From the NCBI RefSeq assembly GCF_041477585.1, contig NZ_JBGNYA010000001.1, positions 2,604,001 to 2,668,000 on the forward strand: a stretch of DNA of 64,000 bases, read 5' to 3'. This document shows, one piece after another, positions 47,425 through 56,441 of the stretch (positions are counted from its first letter, which is position 1; the number at the start of each line of letters is the position of its first letter). A program made the position numbers and the translations under genes. The notes beneath the pieces were generated by a model that was given only the letters and a program-made list of their open reading frames with translations, was not told the DNA's origin and ran no database searches. This DNA is from Halobellus sp. MBLA0158. GTDB lineage: Archaea > Halobacteriota > Halobacteria > Halobacteriales > Haloferacaceae.

Positions 47425-47617
47425 GCGGCGTCGCCGTGACGTGGGCGAACAGCCGGCGCGGCCGCACCGCGTCCCCGAGCCATCGCGCCGGAACTACCGC
47501 TTTCCAGCCCGGGGCGAGCGTCAGATCACGGCGTGGATGGTCCCGGCCCCGTACATAAACGCTCGTGTGATCCCGACGGCCGACAGTATCAGGTGTCTCG
47601 CCGCCGCCTTTCCGTCG

Positions 47618-49108
47618 ATGACCGAGTCCGAGCCGACGACGGCGATCGTCTGGTTCCGCCGCGACCTCCGGCTCCACGACAACCGGGCGCTCGCCGCCGC
47701 AGCGGAGGCTGACCGCCTCGTCCCGGTGTACTGCGTCGATCCGCGGCGGTGCGGCAGCCGCTCCTACGGCGGTTCCGAGCCGTTCGCGTTCCAGCGGCTC
47801 GGCGCCCGCCGGGCGCGGTTCCGCAGGGAGTCACTCGCCGCGCTCCGCGAGCGGATGCGCGAGGCCGGCACGGACCTGCTGATCCGCCGCGGCCGTCCCG
47901 AGCGCGTCCTCCCGGACCTCGCCGCGGACGTCGGCGCCGGAACCGTGACGTTCCACGACCTGCCCGCGCCGGAGGAGCGGTCGGTGCGGGCGGCGACGAC
48001 GGCGGCGCTCCGCGACCGCGGCGTGACCCCGCGGCGCTTCTGGGGGCGGACGCTCCACCACCCCGCCGACCTGCCGACCCCGTACACGGCGATCAGCGAC
48101 ACCTACACCGACTTTCGGGAGGCCGTCGAAGCGGAGTCGCGGGTCCGCGCGCCGCGACCGCGCCCCTCGCTGCCGCCGCTGCCGACCGACGACGACCCGA
48201 CCATCTCGGATCCGCTATCGCCGGGAGAGCTGCCGTCGGTCGCGGAGTTCGTCGAGGGCGAAATTGAAGCCTCGGAGCGGGACGACCGCGCCGCGCTCGA
48301 TTTCCGCGGCGGAGAGGACGCCGCGCTCGATCGGCTGTCGGCGTACCTCTGGGACGGTGACCGCCTCCGAGAGTATCGGGAGACGCGGAACGGTCTGGTG
48401 GGCGCCGATTACTCCTCGAAGCTCTCGCCGTGGCTCAACGAGGGCTGTCTCTCGCCGCGGCGCGTCCACGCCGCGGTGGAGGCATACGAGCGCGAGCGCG
48501 TCGCGAACGACTCGACGTACTGGCTGCTGTTCGAGCTCCGTTGGCGGGACTTCTTCCAGTTTCAGGTCCTGAAACACGGCGGGCAGTTCTTCGCGCCCGG
48601 CGGGCTCAGGCGCCGGGACGTCGAGTGGCGGTGGGACGAAGACGACTTCGAGCGCTGGGCCGCCGGCGAGACCGGCGTCCCGTTCGTCGACGCGAGTATG
48701 CGGGAGCTGAACGCGACGGGGTACCTCTCCAATCGGGGGCGACAGAACGCCGCGTCGTTCCTCGCGAACGACCTGCGGCTCGACTGGCGGCGCGGGGCCG
48801 CGTACTTCGAGACCCGCCTCGTCGACTACGACCCCGCGTCGAACTACGGCAACTGGGCGTACGTCGCGGGCGTCGGCAACGACTCCCGAGAGCGCGCGTT
48901 CGACGTCGTCTCGCAGGCCAAGCGGTACGATCCCGACGCCGAGTTCGTCACCCGGTGGCTGCCGGAACTGGCGTCGCTGCCGCCGGAGCGCGCCCACGAG
49001 CCGTGGACGCTCTCCCCGGCCGAGCAGGCCGACTTCGGCGTGGAACTCGGCGTCGACTACCCGCCGCCGATGATCGATCCCGAATCGTCCGGCGACGATC
49101 CGGTGTGA
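47618..49108 (+). CDS. Cryptochrome DASH / photolyase-family protein
   Basis: 496 residues from the ATG at 47618. The antenna-domain start TAIVWFRRDLRLHDNRALAA and the FAD pocket YSSKLSPWLNEGCLSPRRVH near residue 265 are intact. ATGYLSNRGRQNAASF near residue 365 is the DASH hallmark. WRDFFQFQVLKHGG and SNYGNWAYVAGVGND are also typical. DASH proteins repair pyrimidine dimers mainly in single-stranded DNA and sense blue light. GTACATAAAC 60-65 bases upstream may be the promoter. Longer in-frame starts lack conserved sequence. Confidence 0.92.
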   Translation: MTESEPTTAIVWFRRDLRLHDNRALAAAAEADRLVPVYCVDPRRCGSRSYGGSEPFAFQRLGARRARFRRESLAALRERMREAGTDLLIRRGRPERVLPDLAADVGAGTVTFHDLPAPEERSVRAATTAALRDRGVTPRRFWGRTLHHPADLPTPYTAISDTYTDFREAVEAESRVRAPRPRPSLPPLPTDDDPTISDPLSPGELPSVAEFVEGEIEASERDDRAALDFRGGEDAALDRLSAYLWDGDRLREYRETRNGLVGADYSSKLSPWLNEGCLSPRRVHAAVEAYERERVANDSTYWLLFELRWRDFFQFQVLKHGGQFFAPGGLRRRDVEWRWDEDDFERWAAGETGVPFVDASMRELNATGYLSNRGRQNAASFLANDLRLDWRRGAAYFETRLVDYDPASNYGNWAYVAGVGNDSRERAFDVVSQAKRYDPDAEFVTRWLPELASLPPERAHEPWTLSPAEQADFGVELGVDYPPPMIDPESSGDDPV

Positions 49109-49753: not shown

Positions 49754-50860
49754 ATGGGGATCGCCGAGACATACACACGCGGACGACAGTTCGCGGTCAC
49801 ACGGCCCGGTTCAGTTCTCTTGGCGCTCGTCGGGACCGTGCTGCTGTTCGATCTGCTCTACGGTCTCGCGACCGGGAGCCAATCGTTCAGCGGCGTCGGC
49901 TCGCTGGTCTGGGACGGACTGATGCGCGGGCTAGTGATCGGTCTCGCGGGCATCGGGCTCTCTATGACGTACAGTATTCTGAACTTCGCGAACTTCGCGC
50001 ACGGTGATTACATCACCGCGGGCGCGTTCTCCGGCTGGGCCACGACGTATCTCGTCGCCGGCCTCGGCCGCGCCGACGTCGGCGCGCTGCTGCTCGTCGG
50101 CGCCGGCGGCTCGGTCTTCGGCGGCACGCTCGGCATCAACGTCGTCGGGACGCCGCTGGCCATCGTCGCGGGCATCGTCGTCGCCGGCGTGACGACCGTC
50201 GCGCTCGCGCTCTTCGTCGACCGGACCGTCTTCAAGCCGATCCGCGACGAGACGGGGATCACGCTTCTGATCACGAGCGTCGGCGTGGCGTTCGCGCTCC
50301 GCTACCTGATGCAGTTCGTCTTCGGGTCGAGCGTCCGCGGGACGACGGCACAGCCGCCGTCACTGTCGCTGTACTTCGTCGACGGCGCCGTCCGGATCAA
50401 CGCCCACGACGTCGCCCTCGTCGTCGTCGCGGGCGGCCTGATGCTCGGGATCCACCTGCTCTTGCAGCTGACGAAGCTCGGGAAGGCGATGCGGGCGATG
50501 GCGGACAACGAGGACCTCGCCCAGATCACCGGGATCCCGACGGAGCGGGTCGTCCGCGCGGTGTGGGTCATCGGCGGCGGCCTGACCGGGATCGCGGGCT
50601 ATATGTTCATCCTCTGGAAGGGGACGCTCGGCTTCAACGACGGCTGGCTGCTCCTGCTCTTGATCTTCGCGGCGGTGATCCTCGGCGGCATCGGCTCGAT
50701 CTACGGCGCGATCGTCGGCGGCCTGGCCATCGGGCTCACGGCCTCGGTGTCGATCATCTGGATCCCCTCGGCGTTCGCGCGCGCGGCGGCGTTCTTCGTG
50801 ATGATCGTCCTGCTGTTGGTCAAGCCCGAGGGGATCTTCTCCGGGAGGTCGACAGCATGA
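49754..50860 (+). CDS. livH: Branched-chain amino acid-type ABC transporter permease LivH
   Basis: 368-residue integral membrane protein with about eight hydrophobic spans. LSMTYSILNFANFAHGDYIT near residue 75 is the LivH signature, and KAMRAMADNEDLAQITGIPT is the coupling loop that contacts the ATPase. A promoter box AGACTTATCA (about 49706-49715) gives a leader of about 14 bases. First gene of livHMGF; it overlaps livM by four bases. Confidence 0.94.
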   Translation: MGIAETYTRGRQFAVTRPGSVLLALVGTVLLFDLLYGLATGSQSFSGVGSLVWDGLMRGLVIGLAGIGLSMTYSILNFANFAHGDYITAGAFSGWATTYLVAGLGRADVGALLLVGAGGSVFGGTLGINVVGTPLAIVAGIVVAGVTTVALALFVDRTVFKPIRDETGITLLITSVGVAFALRYLMQFVFGSSVRGTTAQPPSLSLYFVDGAVRINAHDVALVVVAGGLMLGIHLLLQLTKLGKAMRAMADNEDLAQITGIPTERVVRAVWVIGGGLTGIAGYMFILWKGTLGFNDGWLLLLLIFAAVILGGIGSIYGAIVGGLAIGLTASVSIIWIPSAFARAAAFFVMIVLLLVKPEGIFSGRSTA

Positions 50861-52209
50861 GCGTCCGCGACGACGTCGCCCAGCGGCTCCCCGGCGGCGA
50901 CGCGGGCCTCATCCTGGCGGTTCTCGCCGCCACGTACGTCGCGTACGTGCTGATCGGCGTCGGACTGGGGTACTCGCTGCGCGGGCAGCTCAACACGATC
51001 GCGGTCCTGACGTTCTACATCGGCGTCTTCGCGATGCTGGCGCTCGCGCTCAACCTCCACTGGGGCTACACCGGGCTCTTCAACATCGGCATCGTCGGGT
51101 TCATGGCCGTCGGCATCTACGTGATGGCGGTCGTCTCGAAGCCGCTGTACCAGCCCGGCGGCGCGGCGCAGGTCGGCGGCCTCGGGCTCCCGATCGTCGT
51201 CGGGATGGTCGCCGGGATGGTCGCCGCCGCGCTCCTGGGGCTGGTGATCGCCCTCCCGGCGCTGCGGTTGCGGGCGGACTACCTCGCCATCGTCACGATC
51301 GCGATGTCGGAGATCGTCCGCTTTTCGTTCCTGTCGGGCGAACTCCAGCAGTTCCAGCTGTTCGGCACGCGGGTCGGCTTCGGCGGCGGGTCGGGGCTCA
51401 TCCTCGATTACACGGGGCCGCTGGAGGCGTTCTTCGGGTTCTTCGGCCTGTGGGACGGCTATCTGGGCTTCGTGGAGGCCTTCGAGATACTCGTGCCGAA
51501 CAACCCGAAGCCCGTCGTCGACGGGCTCGTCTACGGGGTCGTCCTCCTTCTCTTCGTCGCCGTCTACTTCTGGCTCCTGAAGCGCACGGGCGAGTCGCCG
51601 TTCGGCCGCGTGCTCAAGGCGATCCGCGAGGACGAAGACGTCGCGAACTCCCTGGGCAAGGACACGAACCGCTTCAAGATCAAGGCGTTCATGCTCGGCT
51701 GCGCGCTGATGGGCCTGGCGGGCATCCTCTGGTTTATGCGCAGCGGCGCCGTCACGCCGAACACCTTCCGGCCGCGGATCACCTTCTTCATCTGGATCGC
51801 GCTGATCATCGGCGGCGCGGGCTCGAACACCGGCAGCGTCCTCGGCGGCGCGGTCTTCGCCGCGCTGCTGTATCAGGGGCCGCGGTACCTGAAGAACCTC
51901 GTAGATACGGTGCTGCCGAACGCCAGCGCGCCGCCGGGCTTCGGGCCGGCCATCGCACCGCTGATCTCGAATCTCAATCCGGCGCCGCTGTTCTTCTACA
52001 CGATCGACAGCATCCGGCAGCTCCAGCTCGTGTTCATGGGCCTGGTGCTGATCTGGCTGATGCACAACCGCCCGGAGGGGATGCTCGGTCACCGCAAGGA
52101 AACCGCCGCGGGCATCCCGCTGACGTCGTCGAACGCCCGCGACACCGCCGCGGGCGCCAGAACCGACGGCGGCGCGGCGTCGGCACCCGGAGGTGACGCC
52201 GATGAGTGA
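50857..52209 (+). CDS. livM: Branched-chain amino acid-type ABC transporter permease LivM
   Basis: 450 residues from the ATG at 50857 that overlaps the livH stop. LALNLHWGYTGLFNIGIVGF near residue 62 is the LivM signature, and FGRVLKAIREDEDVANSLGK is the EAA-type coupling loop. Two long inserts (near residues 170-235 and 345-390) and an Ala/Gly-rich polar tail make it longer than bacterial LivM. It overlaps livG by eight bases. Confidence 0.94.
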   Translation: MSVRDDVAQRLPGGDAGLILAVLAATYVAYVLIGVGLGYSLRGQLNTIAVLTFYIGVFAMLALALNLHWGYTGLFNIGIVGFMAVGIYVMAVVSKPLYQPGGAAQVGGLGLPIVVGMVAGMVAAALLGLVIALPALRLRADYLAIVTIAMSEIVRFSFLSGELQQFQLFGTRVGFGGGSGLILDYTGPLEAFFGFFGLWDGYLGFVEAFEILVPNNPKPVVDGLVYGVVLLLFVAVYFWLLKRTGESPFGRVLKAIREDEDVANSLGKDTNRFKIKAFMLGCALMGLAGILWFMRSGAVTPNTFRPRITFFIWIALIIGGAGSNTGSVLGGAVFAALLYQGPRYLKNLVDTVLPNASAPPGFGPAIAPLISNLNPAPLFFYTIDSIRQLQLVFMGLVLIWLMHNRPEGMLGHRKETAAGIPLTSSNARDTAAGARTDGGAASAPGGDADE

Positions 52210-53092
52210 CGCCGCCTCCGACGAACAGAGCCCCGAGGCCGCCGCGGCCGGCGCGCCCGACGACGTCGACGCCGAGCCGGGGAGGCTGAACCTCGGCGGG
52301 TCGGGCGGCCCGGCCGTCTCCGAGGAGTACCCGCTCGTCGTCGAGAACCTCCGGAAGTCCTTCGGGGGGATCACCGCCGTCGACGACGCGTCCTTCCGGG
52401 TCGAGCGCGGGAGCCTCACCGGGCTGATCGGCCCGAACGGCGCCGGCAAGTCGACGACGTTCAACCTCATCACCGGGATGTTGGAGCCCGACGCGGGGAG
52501 CGTGACCTTCGACGGCGAGGAGATCACCGGCCAAAAGCCCCACACCATCGCGAACAAGGGGCTCGTCCGGACGTTCCAGATCGCCCGCGAGCTCCAGGAG
52601 ATGACGGTGCTCGAGAATATGATGCTCGCGCCGAAGCACCAGCGCGGCGAGGCGCTGTGGCGCTCCGTGACGCCGGGCTTCCGCGGCGACGTGATCGAAC
52701 AGGAGTCGGCGCTGCTCGAACGCGTCTGGGAGGTGCTGGAGTTTTTCGAGATCGACCACATCGCCGAGGAATACGCGGGCAACCTCTCGGGCGGCCAGCG
52801 GAAGCTGCTGGAGCTGGCGCGGGCGCTCCTGACCGACCCGGACATACTGCTCTTGGACGAGCCGTTCGCCGGCGTGAATCCGTCGCTGGAGCGTCGCCTG
52901 CTCGACCACATCCACGAACTGCGCGAGCAGGGCTATACGTTCCTGCTCGTCGAACACGATATGGACCTGATAATGGAGAACTGCGAGCGAGTGATCGTCC
53001 TCCACCAGGGCAGAGTCCTCACCGAGGGCACGCCCGCGGAGATCCAAGCGAACGAGGAAGTCATCGAGGCCTACCTCGGAGGGAACGTATGA
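52202..53092 (+). CDS. livG: Branched-chain amino acid-type ABC transporter ATPase LivG
   Basis: 296 residues. After an acidic N-terminal tail of about 45 residues comes Walker A GPNGAGKST near residue 79, the ABC signature LSGGQRKLLELARALL near 195 and Walker B ILLLDEPFAGVNPSLE. NKGLVRTFQIARELQEMTVL is the LivG-type Q-loop region. It works with LivF on the LivHM pore. Overlaps livF by four bases. Confidence 0.95.
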   Translation: MSDAASDEQSPEAAAAGAPDDVDAEPGRLNLGGSGGPAVSEEYPLVVENLRKSFGGITAVDDASFRVERGSLTGLIGPNGAGKSTTFNLITGMLEPDAGSVTFDGEEITGQKPHTIANKGLVRTFQIARELQEMTVLENMMLAPKHQRGEALWRSVTPGFRGDVIEQESALLERVWEVLEFFEIDHIAEEYAGNLSGGQRKLLELARALLTDPDILLLDEPFAGVNPSLERRLLDHIHELREQGYTFLLVEHDMDLIMENCERVIVLHQGRVLTEGTPAEIQANEEVIEAYLGGNV

Positions 53093-53919
53093 GCGCCGAC
53101 GCGACGGCCGACGACCGCGACGTCGACGCGGCCGAAGATGCAGACAGCCCGGGCATCGCGGACGATCCGGAGACGGCCGACGTCTCGCGGGACACGGTCC
53201 CGGAGTGGGAAGACGAATCGCTGCTGGAAGTCCGCGGCCTCGACGCGGGCTACGGCGACCTCCAGATCCTCACCGACGTCGACCTGGACGTCGCCGACGG
53301 GGAGTACGTCACCATCGTCGGCCCCAACGGCGCCGGCAAGTCGACGGTGATGAAGTCCGTCTTCGGGCTGACGAACCTGATGGGCGGCACCGTCACCTTC
53401 GAGGGCGAGGACATCACCGGGCTGCGGCCCGAGGAGATCATCCACGAGGGGATCGGCTACGTCCCGCAGAACGACAACATCTTCGCGTCGCTGACCGTCC
53501 GGGAGAACCTCGAAATGGGCGCGTACATCCTCGACGAGGTGCCCCAGGACGCCCTCGATGCCGTCTTCGATCGCTTCCCGATCCTGGAGGAACGGCAGTC
53601 CCAGAAGGCCGGGACGATGTCCGGCGGCCAACAGCAGATGCTCGCGATGGGGCGGGCGCTGATGCTCGACCCCTCGCTGCTCCTCCTGGACGAGCCCTCG
53701 GCCGGCCTCGCGCCCGACCTGGTCGACGACATGTTCGACCGGATCGACGCGATCAACGACGACGGGACCGCGGTCCTGATGGTCGAACAGAACGCCAAGG
53801 AGGCGCTGCGGCGGTGCGACCGCGGCTATGTCCTCGCGAACGGGAAGAACCGCTATATGGACGACGGCGACGCGCTCCTGAACGACGAGCAGGTCCGCCA
53901 GGACTTCCTCGGCGGCTGA
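53089..53919 (+). CDS. livF: Branched-chain amino acid-type ABC transporter ATPase LivF
   Basis: 276 residues. Acidic N-terminal tail of about 45 residues, Walker A GPNGAGKSTVMKSVFGL near residue 79, signature MSGGQQQMLAMGRALM near 180 and Walker B LLLLDEPSAGLAPDLV. The GYVPQNDNIFASLTVRENLE Q-loop is LivF-like. It ends the livHMGF operon, facing the binding-protein gene across 118 bases. Confidence 0.95.
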   Translation: MSADATADDRDVDAAEDADSPGIADDPETADVSRDTVPEWEDESLLEVRGLDAGYGDLQILTDVDLDVADGEYVTIVGPNGAGKSTVMKSVFGLTNLMGGTVTFEGEDITGLRPEEIIHEGIGYVPQNDNIFASLTVRENLEMGAYILDEVPQDALDAVFDRFPILEERQSQKAGTMSGGQQQMLAMGRALMLDPSLLLLDEPSAGLAPDLVDDMFDRIDAINDDGTAVLMVEQNAKEALRRCDRGYVLANGKNRYMDDGDALLNDEQVRQDFLGG

Positions 53920-54007: not shown

Positions 54008-54013
54008 AAAAAA
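54008..54013 (-). terminator. T-run after the binding-protein gene
   Basis: A6 on the plus strand, so T6 on the minus strand, 25 bases after the stop of the convergent binding-protein gene. Confidence 0.5.
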
Positions 54014-54037: not shown

Positions 54038-55435
54038 TCAGTTGTCCGGCGGCGACAGGGCCGACTCGATGACCGACGAGTAGGAGGACTCGCCGATGTT
54101 GAAGGCGACCTGCCGGTAGACCTCGCCGTCGAAGGTCTCCTCGAACACGTTGCTGAAGCGGTTCGAGAGCTGCTGGCCGTAGTCGTTGTTGACGTAGAGC
54201 GTCGAGACGCTGTCGACGTCGAGCCGCTCGGACATCACCTGCGCCATCACGCGGCCCTGGAGCCGGTCGGAGGGCGCGGTCCGGAAGATGTAGTCGTTGT
54301 CGTCGAGGTTCGTGACCGACAGCGCGGTCGAGGACGGCGAGCAGCCGACGACCTCGTTCGGGATGAACACCTGCTGAGAGACCGGGACGTTCACGCCCGA
54401 AGACGCCGAGCCGCAGACGCTCGGCACGCCGGCGCTGACGAGCGACTCGGCGGCCGCCGTCCCCGCGCTCGGCGAGGTCTGGGTGTCTTCGACCTGGGCG
54501 TTGACCGAGAGCCCGGCGGGGTTGGCCTCGTTGACCTGCATCGCCGGGAGCTGGGCGGCCTGGATCATCGGCGCGCCGACGGAGGCGAGGTCGCCGGTCT
54601 CCGGGAGGAGGATCCCGACCGACATCTCGCGGTCGCTCCCGCCGGGGCCGCTGTCTGCCGAGGGGCCGGCGCCCTCGGGGTTCGCCCCCTCGAAGCTCTG
54701 GACTTCGAGGGTCTCGGCGGCGCCCTCTCCCGCGTTGAACTCCCAGATGGCGTACGCCGCGGAGGCGGGGTCGCCGTTCTGGTCGAAGTTCGTCGCCGAC
54801 GAGGCGCCCTGGTAGTTCACGTCCTCGCCGTTAGCGGCGGCCTCGACGCCCTCGACGAGGTTGTTCGGCGTGACGGTCATCCCGTCCGGATTGGCGATGC
54901 GACGCATCTGGTCGCGGATCGCCGTCCCGTCGTTCTCGCCGGCCGCGGCGTTCGCCAGCAGCTGGAGGGCGACCGAGTCGTACGACTGAGAGGTGAACAC
55001 GCCGGGCGAGGAGCCGTACTCGTCCTGGAACAGCGTGTTGAACGCCTCCTGGTTCGGGCCGCCCGCGGCGGGAGCCGTCCCCGTCACGTTCTCCATGTCG
55101 TTGCCGACCTGGCCCGGGAGGGCCCCGTCGCGGAGGCCGTCCGGCACGAGGATCTCCTCGCTCCCGTCGGAGGCGCTGTAGTAGTCGCGGAACAGCTGGA
55201 TCCCGCTCTCGGGGTAGCCGATGACGACGAGGCCGCCGGGGCCGTCGCCGCCGCCACCACCGCTCGTGGTTGTGCCGCCGCCGGAGTCGCCGCCGCCGTC
55301 GCCACCGTCTCCGCCGTCGCCCCCGCCGTCACCGCTGTCGGGGCTCCCGATACAGCCGGCAATTCCCGTCGCTCCGATCGCACCCGCTGCGCCGACGCGC
55401 TTGATAAAGTCACGCCGTACGATATCACGTGCCAT
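54038..55435 (-). CDS. livJ: Liv-type substrate-binding lipoprotein, circularly permuted
   Basis: 465 residues. Tat/lipoprotein signal DIVRRDFIKRVGAAGAIGATG with lipobox GIAGC (Cys28) and a Gly/Asp/Ser linker to about residue 67. Then comes LVVIGYPESGIQLFRDYY (69-86) through YDSVALQLLANAAAGENDG to about 250, which is normally the second half of a type I binding protein. A Gly/Pro-rich bridge (251-268) leads to REMSVGILLPETGDLASVG (269-287), YIFRTAPSDRLQG and STLYVNNDYGQQLSNRF, normally the first half, ending SSVIESALSPPDN. All parts are present but in swapped order. It presumably captures amino acids for LivHMGF. Confidence 0.88.
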   Translation of the reverse strand: MARDIVRRDFIKRVGAAGAIGATGIAGCIGSPDSGDGGGDGGDGGDGGGDSGGGTTTSGGGGGDGPGGLVVIGYPESGIQLFRDYYSASDGSEEILVPDGLRDGALPGQVGNDMENVTGTAPAAGGPNQEAFNTLFQDEYGSSPGVFTSQSYDSVALQLLANAAAGENDGTAIRDQMRRIANPDGMTVTPNNLVEGVEAAANGEDVNYQGASSATNFDQNGDPASAAYAIWEFNAGEGAAETLEVQSFEGANPEGAGPSADSGPGGSDREMSVGILLPETGDLASVGAPMIQAAQLPAMQVNEANPAGLSVNAQVEDTQTSPSAGTAAAESLVSAGVPSVCGSASSGVNVPVSQQVFIPNEVVGCSPSSTALSVTNLDDNDYIFRTAPSDRLQGRVMAQVMSERLDVDSVSTLYVNNDYGQQLSNRFSNVFEETFDGEVYRQVAFNIGESSYSSVIESALSPPDN

Positions 55436-55748
55436 ATTCCTCGGAATGTGTCTCCTCCCTATAAATGTGTCCGTTATGGTACTGTACGTTCGTGTATATA
55501 TCGGAGACGATCACGATGGATACGCAGGACGAACCGGCCGGTCGGTACTGTCAGGCCAGCGGTTCGTCCGCTCGTAGTTCCGAACCCGAAGGTCGGCTTC
55601 ATCCCGAATATATCAAAATTAGTACTTTTTGTGGCCGCGGGATTCCGCTCGGAAACGGCCGTCGCTCGGTCGCTGGCCGCGTGGGGTCGCCGGGGCGGGC
55701 ACCGCGCTTCCGACACGCTCAAGCGCCCGGGCGCTCGCCACTCAAGGG
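55436..55748. other. 313-base divergent spacer between the binding protein and udk
   Basis: No credible gene. It holds the binding-protein promoter at its left end. GAATATATCAAAATTAGTACT (about 55604-55624) is an AT-rich stretch that could hold a promoter for udk, which would give a leader of about 100 bases. Confidence 0.4.
55458..55467 (-). promoter_or_regulatory. TATA box for the binding-protein gene (leaderless)
   Basis: CATTTATAGG on the minus strand is centred 27-28 bases before the ATG at 55435. Confidence 0.65.
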
Positions 55749-56441
55749 ATGACTATCCCGTCGTTCGTGATCGGGATCGCCGGCGGCACCGGCGCCGGAA
55801 AGACGACGGTGGCCCGCCTGATCGCCGAGGGCGTCGGCGACTCCGTCACCCGGATCCCGCTCGACAACTACTACGAGGACCTGAGTCACCTCGAGTTCGA
55901 AGAGCGCGAGCAGGTCAACTACGATCACCCCTCGGCGTTCGAGTGGGAGCTCCTGCGCGAGCAGGTCTCGACGCTGCTCGAAGGCCAGCCGATCGAGATG
56001 CCCGTCTACGACTTCGAGCGGCACAACCGGACCGACGAGCCCGAGCGCGTCGAGCCCACGGACGTCATCGTCCTGGAGGGCATCTTCGCGCTCTACGACG
56101 AGGACCTCAACGACATGCTCGACCTCCGCCTGTACGTCGACACCGACGCCGACGTCCGGATACTCCGGCGGATCAAGCGCGACGTCATCGAGCGGGGCCG
56201 CGACCTCGAAGGCGTCATCGAGCAGTACCTCGCGACGGTCAAACCGATGCACGAGCAGTTCGTCGAACCGACGAAGAAGCACGCCGACCTCATCATCCCC
56301 GAGGGCGCAAACAGCGTCGCGGTGAGCCTCCTCGAAGAGAAGATCAGGGCCGAGATCGACGGCGACGCTCGCCGCGACTGGGAGCGGGAACCGCTCGAAA
56401 GCCCGCTCGTCGAGGAGCTCGCGGCCGACCCCGACGAGTGA
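55749..56441 (+). CDS. udk: Uridine kinase
   Basis: 230 residues from the ATG at 55749. Walker A is VIGIAGGTGAGKTTVARL (residues 7-24). LDNYYEDLSHLEFEEREQVN and YDHPSAFEWELLREQVSTLL are uridine-kinase motifs, with VIVLEGIFALYDEDLNDML as Walker B and RILRRIKRDVIERGRDLEGV as the lid. It phosphorylates uridine and cytidine in pyrimidine salvage. The stop is followed at once by the repeat shared with 23.6 kb. Confidence 0.94.
   Translation: MTIPSFVIGIAGGTGAGKTTVARLIAEGVGDSVTRIPLDNYYEDLSHLEFEEREQVNYDHPSAFEWELLREQVSTLLEGQPIEMPVYDFERHNRTDEPERVEPTDVIVLEGIFALYDEDLNDMLDLRLYVDTDADVRILRRIKRDVIERGRDLEGVIEQYLATVKPMHEQFVEPTKKHADLIIPEGANSVAVSLLEEKIRAEIDGDARRDWEREPLESPLVEELAADPDE

Follow-up and report, generated by a model that had tools for sequence, protein, structure and literature searches.

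A naturally permuted Liv-type substrate-binding lipoprotein gene in Halobellus and its relatives among haloarchaea

The locus and its genes

The DNA analysed here, called the window below, is a stretch of 64,000 nucleotides from the haloarchaeon Halobellus sp. MBLA0158. It carries the gene of a Liv-type substrate-binding lipoprotein that is convergent with a complete livHMGF set, and the features of this locus are as follows.

49754..50860 (+): LivH-type permease; best matches are UrtB/LivH models, below cut-offs
50857..52209 (+): LivM-type permease; NCBIfam model match
52193..53092 (+): LivG-type ATPase; NF008449, 4e-69
53089..53919 (+): LivF-type ATPase, convergent neighbour of the binding protein; NF008626, 4e-70
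54008..54013 (-): T6 run, candidate terminator, 25 nt past the stop codon; motif read from the DNA
54038..55435 (-): permuted Liv-type substrate-binding lipoprotein gene, 465 aa; alignment, PF13458 profile, genome-wide comparison
54053..54631 (-): former first half of the fold, residues 269-461, now last; mostly 45-63% identity to ordinary first halves, 3ipc superposition
54632..54685 (-): Gly/Pro/Ser bridge between the old C- and N-termini, residues 251-268; junction table, modelled with pLDDT ~83-93
54686..55231 (-): former second half of the fold, residues 69-250, now first; mostly 50-61% identity to ordinary second halves
55232..55351 (-): Gly/Asp-rich linker, residues 29-68, directly before the former second half; sequence and junction table
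55352..55435 (-): predicted twin-arginine lipoprotein signal (RRDFIK) and lipobox, residues 1-28; sequence, Pfam TAT_signal in 5/42 aligned relatives
55460..55465 (-): TTTATA at 25-30 nt upstream of the ATG, a candidate archaeal TATA box that suggests a leaderless start; motif read from the DNA
55749..56441 (+): uridine kinase, a locus marker common to permuted and ordinary relatives; synteny, profile match

The binding-protein gene starts with the ATG at 55435 and stops at 54038-54040. Its product begins with a signal that reads MARDIVRRDFIKRVG...GIAGC28, where the lipobox ends at Cys28 and the Gly/Asp linker comes next. The former second half then opens with LVVIGYPESGIQLFRDYY... and extends to approximately residue 250, and the former first half opens with MSVGILLPETGDLASVG... 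and finishes at SSYSSVIESALSPPDN. The first-pass annotation had placed this gene at 54038-55435, associated it with livHMGF and given it a leaderless promoter and a T-run of its own. The coordinates held, the strand being minus, as did the association with livHMGF by synteny. A matching TTTATA and T6 are present, and T6 runs stand behind both convergent genes, the binding protein and LivF; their role as promoter and terminators is inferred from the sequence alone. A scan for sigma-70 promoters and terminators found neither, as is expectable in an archaeon.

For the neighbouring permeases and ATPases, the best NCBIfam matches come from Liv models or the closely related Urt ones and fall below the equivalog cut-offs, so annotation does not fix the substrate. 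Directly upstream of livH lies a photolyase/cryptochrome-like gene (47441-49108, +), and distant relatives of it (30-33%) are found 1-6 kb from the permuted gene in the Haloarcula-type loci L056:7518-8849, L076:7627-8958 and L083:7633-8958, a type defined below.

Exchange of the two halves

The window protein is a Liv-type (Peripla_BP_6, type I) binding lipoprotein in which the order of the two halves is exchanged. On the native chain PF13458 matches in two pieces at 95.1 bits, the main piece placing residues 272-459 on profile positions 3-186, and when the halves are restored to their ordinary order the profile matches in one stretch, 3-315 of 343, at 111 bits. The match exceeds the curated cut-off of 31.7, both halves are aligned, and homology to Peripla_BP_6 is not in doubt. 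Identity to ordinary haloarchaeal relatives, in which the first half precedes the second, is mostly 45-63% for the window protein's first half (269-462) and mostly 50-61% for its second (64-250); the window protein itself has the second half and then the first. In the ordinary relative L027 the first half (A) matches residues 115-304 and the second (B) residues 305-488; the two matches abut, and thus the break is one reciprocal site at which nothing was lost. The ordinary-order relative encoded by the same genome reads ...SSYSSRLQTALADDPDLFVVITYPQSGVQLFRDYY..., which bridges the two ends of the window protein. This genome encodes ten Peripla_BP_6 proteins. In nine of them the match begins at profile position 1-2 and extends to 311-339, and only the window protein matches just profile 3-186, at its C-terminal end. 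The NCBIfam LivJ model covers only residues 269-457 of it.

LivJ/LivK-type proteins (PF13458; T. maritima LivK 3td9, Atu2422 3ipc, and E. coli LivJ) are homologous to the window protein over both halves and share with it the nature of a lipoprotein beside livHMGF; compared with them, its order is swapped at approximately residue 193 (3ipc numbering), its anchor linker leads into the second lobe, and its old termini are bridged. An AF2 model of the window protein (pLDDT 89.2, pTM 0.85) has its best structural matches among type I LivJ/K and mGluR ligand domains, without a direct comparison to type II proteins. The last 195 residues of the model (210-404) fit onto residues 1-193 of LivJ/LivK-type structures, for 3ipc with Z 14.1 and an rmsd of 2.6. 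Sequential structure aligners matched only one half, as is expected for a permutant, and the case for the other half comes from sequence identity with the ordinary relatives, whose haloarchaeal profile gives a full-length alignment with 3td9 (2.7e-46). The window protein qualifies as a natural permutant: its segments are exchanged about a single site, the halves abut in ordinary chains, and the modelled fold is retained.

The permutation had been proposed in the first-pass annotation, with residues 69-250 as the second half, residues 269-465 as the first, a single break site without loss, and a bridge of the old termini at 251-268. The claim held by alignment, family profiles and predicted structure, both halves matching when each was aligned separately to ordinary relatives. 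The assignment of the halves also held, the first being placed here at ~269-461, as did the single site, given that the halves abut in ordinary relatives, and the bridge, by alignment, junction table and model.

Distribution among haloarchaea

A close relative (E <= 1e-80) is found in 171 of the 391 genomes of the class Halobacteria, representing 34 of 86 genera. The listed matches in those genomes are collinear with the window protein, with the exception of one genus and the truncated L119, and the permuted order occurs in 19 independently named records, including Haloferax, Haloglomus, Haladaptatus, Haloarcula and Halorubrum. Haloferax sp. Q22 is among the carriers of the permuted gene. Outside Halobacteria all listed relatives, from other archaea of the phylum, cyanobacteria and actinobacteria, have the ordinary order, which is ancestral by outgroup (bacteria and other archaea). 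Relatives on plasmids make up 10 records: seven are haloarchaeal and match in two pieces, consistent with the ordinary order, and three are bacterial and match the first half only. L119:1492-2595 (+) in genome G103 is a Halorubrum-type permuted gene in which similarity ends after query residue 361 with an early stop, and is likely a broken copy.

Across the fetched loci of 12-21 kb, the permuted and most of the ordinary genes are convergent with livFGMH. A uridine kinase stands beside permuted genes (window, L058, L067, L072, L073) and beside ordinary ones (L063, L064, L170, L172, L173, L179). This common setting indicates that ordinary and permuted versions fill the same position next to one set of transporter genes. 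The ordinary relatives L063, L064 and L170 of sister genera and L047 of the same genome belong to the same family, are convergent with livFGMH and often lie beside a uridine kinase; they differ in having the first half first. The relative in the same genome (G000:C1:1276731-1278074, +; L047:8732-10075) has its own complete livFGMH adjoining and falls on a different branch of the tree. At L070:7896-8971 (-), in a metagenome-assembled genome, LivH is in two pieces, by frameshift, decay or assembly fault.

Permuted genes on separate branches

On a tree of 100 proteins, with the halves placed in canonical order, the permuted rows fall in four places. Clade A holds 44 of them, the window protein included (support 100/99); a Halorubrum-type clade of 8 rows (100/100) is nested with the ordinary L028 and L145; a Haloarcula-type clade has 6 rows (100/100); and the permuted L111 stands alone. 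A single permuted clade imposed as a constraint was rejected, with a log-likelihood lower by 97 (AU p 0.00043). A tree of LivHMGF from 51 operons places the Halorubrum-type with the ordinary L064/L169, the Haloarcula-type with the ordinary L062 and with L168, and clade A apart. An artefact from halves of different history is ruled out, because trees of the separate halves agree with each other and LivHMGF gives the same grouping. The permuted genes are not one clade and lie on at least three separate branches. The break is in nearly the same loop in all permuted clades, and the bridges differ between clades. Given the separate branches and the agreeing LivHMGF tree, either the same break arose several times, or it arose once and was undone several times.

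A second, different permutation occurs in genomes G394 and G402, which belong to one genus (g94).

L118:883-2217 (+): re-permuted binding-protein gene, G394
L167:8726-10060 (+): re-permuted binding-protein gene, G394
L187:9170-10501 (+): re-permuted binding-protein gene, G402

The re-permuted chain opens at first-half residue 40, continues through the remainder of that half straight into the second half, and then passes over the clade A bridge to finish at first-half residue 39. These proteins resemble the window protein in clade A sequence, bridge and operon, the gene adjoining livFGMH, and differ from it in that the cut lies between first-half residues 39/40 and the first break is healed (ALSDDPDTLVVIGYP, ordinary length). 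Their rows are nested inside clade A in both the protein and the LivHMGF trees, and dN/dS between G394 and G402 is 0.16. A model of the re-permuted protein (pLDDT 90, pTM 0.88) aligns with LivK 3td9 over 309 residues, from residue 55, with Z 28.9. This second permutation, the spread of permuted genes over several branches and the ordinary relatives in the same operon setting of sister genera were all beyond what the first-pass annotation could see.

Function and proposed origin

Purifying selection acts on all forms (dN/dS 0.08-0.25 across the permuted groups), which indicates maintained function in each, and conserved positions occur on both halves of the permuted proteins. The swap, its conservation, the operon setting, the selection and the in-silico fold are shown. 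It is very likely that the window protein is a working, naturally permuted Liv-type lipoprotein that feeds the neighbouring LivHMGF importer, in the absence of expression, binding or transport data; an earlier suggestion that it is probably the working binding protein is supported by selection and operon conservation, with ligand binding and transport inferred. Tat export, lipid anchoring, amino-acid binding and docking on LivHM are likewise inferred, without ligand or transport data.

The assignment of lobes follows the general picture of the type I fold. On that basis the chain would start in a loop that precedes a second-lobe beta strand, run to the old C-terminus, cross the Gly/Pro bridge to the old N-terminus, and end at the helix that formerly preceded the start loop. 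The two-lobed clamp and its pocket would be retained; physically, what would chiefly change is the entry point of the lipid-anchored linker, from the first lobe to the second.

Permutation by duplication is a mechanism reviewed in PMC3320104, and we infer it to be the likeliest route to the permutation in the window. A tandem duplication and an in-frame fusion would have been followed by loss of the outer two halves, and the bridge may be the remains of the old C-tail and a trimmed lipoprotein linker. No fused A-B-A-B intermediates or remnants of duplicated halves were found near the genes examined, and hence this route remains an inference. In Haladaptatus, adjacent tandem pairs of permuted genes lie beside livFGMH (L072:8470-11281 and L073:8322-11269), indicating that the permuted gene does duplicate in tandem; the same pattern is seen in G156 and G343.

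Alternative explanations

The bolder reading of the trees is that haloarchaeal Liv-type binding proteins are a permutation hotspot, in which the same loop was opened independently in 3-4 lineages with the operon unmoved, and one lineage later underwent another permutation at a second site, its first break being healed. The evidence leaves us a little short of evenly balanced on it. If it is true, the position of the termini would be an evolvable trait, perhaps selected for the point at which the lipid anchor enters the clamp.

The strongest rival, which we are mildly inclined to doubt, is that a haloarchaeal ancestor underwent one ancient permutation and the ordinary order was later restored several times; the protein would work the same, and its history alone would differ. 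In its favour are the near-identical break loop in every permuted clade, the likeness of the L111 bridge (FEGG..SDSIPGSSSDR) to that of clade A (FEG..PSADSIPGGTDR), and the re-permuted genus, where an old junction has been healed to ordinary length. However, the tree requires only ~4 gains but a larger number of restorations, each restoration would have to recreate exactly both the xxPD junction and the linker at the N-terminus, and the Halorubrum-type and Haloarcula-type bridges differ from that of clade A in both sequence and length. The bridge likeness between clade A and L111 keeps this reading open. As proof of a single origin the likeness is not decisive, the segments being short and of low complexity and the shuffle z-values inflated by related rows.

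It is very unlikely that the window protein is a paralogue which has decayed, or has been neofunctionalised away from the transporter to become, say, a sensor or an orphan surface protein. This view finds some support in the nine other Peripla_BP_6 proteins of the genome, including the relative of ordinary order that has a liv set of its own, but is opposed by the purifying selection on the permuted genes, the placement kept beside LivHMGF with congruent trees, and the conserved positions on both halves. A swap of the two halves by assembly or scaffolding error, which the first-pass annotation had named as a possible refutation, is excluded: no evidence favouring it was found, and a search of the haloarchaea recovered this arrangement from 171 genomes, which span 34 genera and several families, many of the assemblies having few contigs, as well as in the 19 independently named records.

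Known permutants and significance

Natural permutation of binding proteins is already known. Type II binding proteins are permuted between the glycine betaine binders on one side and the molybdate binders and CysB on the other (PMC2395249), and they resemble the window protein as naturally permuted ABC-importer binding proteins that keep the pocket. The known permutants have the type II fold and less than 24% identity, and were found by structure (PMC2395249), whereas the haloarchaeal case concerns the type I Liv fold at 45-63% identity, in the same kind of locus, in several lineages and with a second permutation. The earlier statement that no permuted Liv-type receptor is described held in the open-access literature searched, where no report of permuted Liv-type or haloarchaeal binding proteins was found, subscription papers being outside its scope; the type II precedent exists. 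What is unusual here is how cleanly orthologues can be compared, that the permutation recurs on the tree, and that a second one exists.

The case also carries a warning, that profile searches see only half of such receptors. Comparisons of natural circular permutants mostly span large sequence distances. In this family the ordinary, permuted and re-permuted versions stand at comparable operon loci in related and partly cultivable archaea, at 45-70% identity, and direct tests of origin, of recurrence at the same site, of reversion, and of the effect of an anchor shift on an ABC importer thereby become possible.
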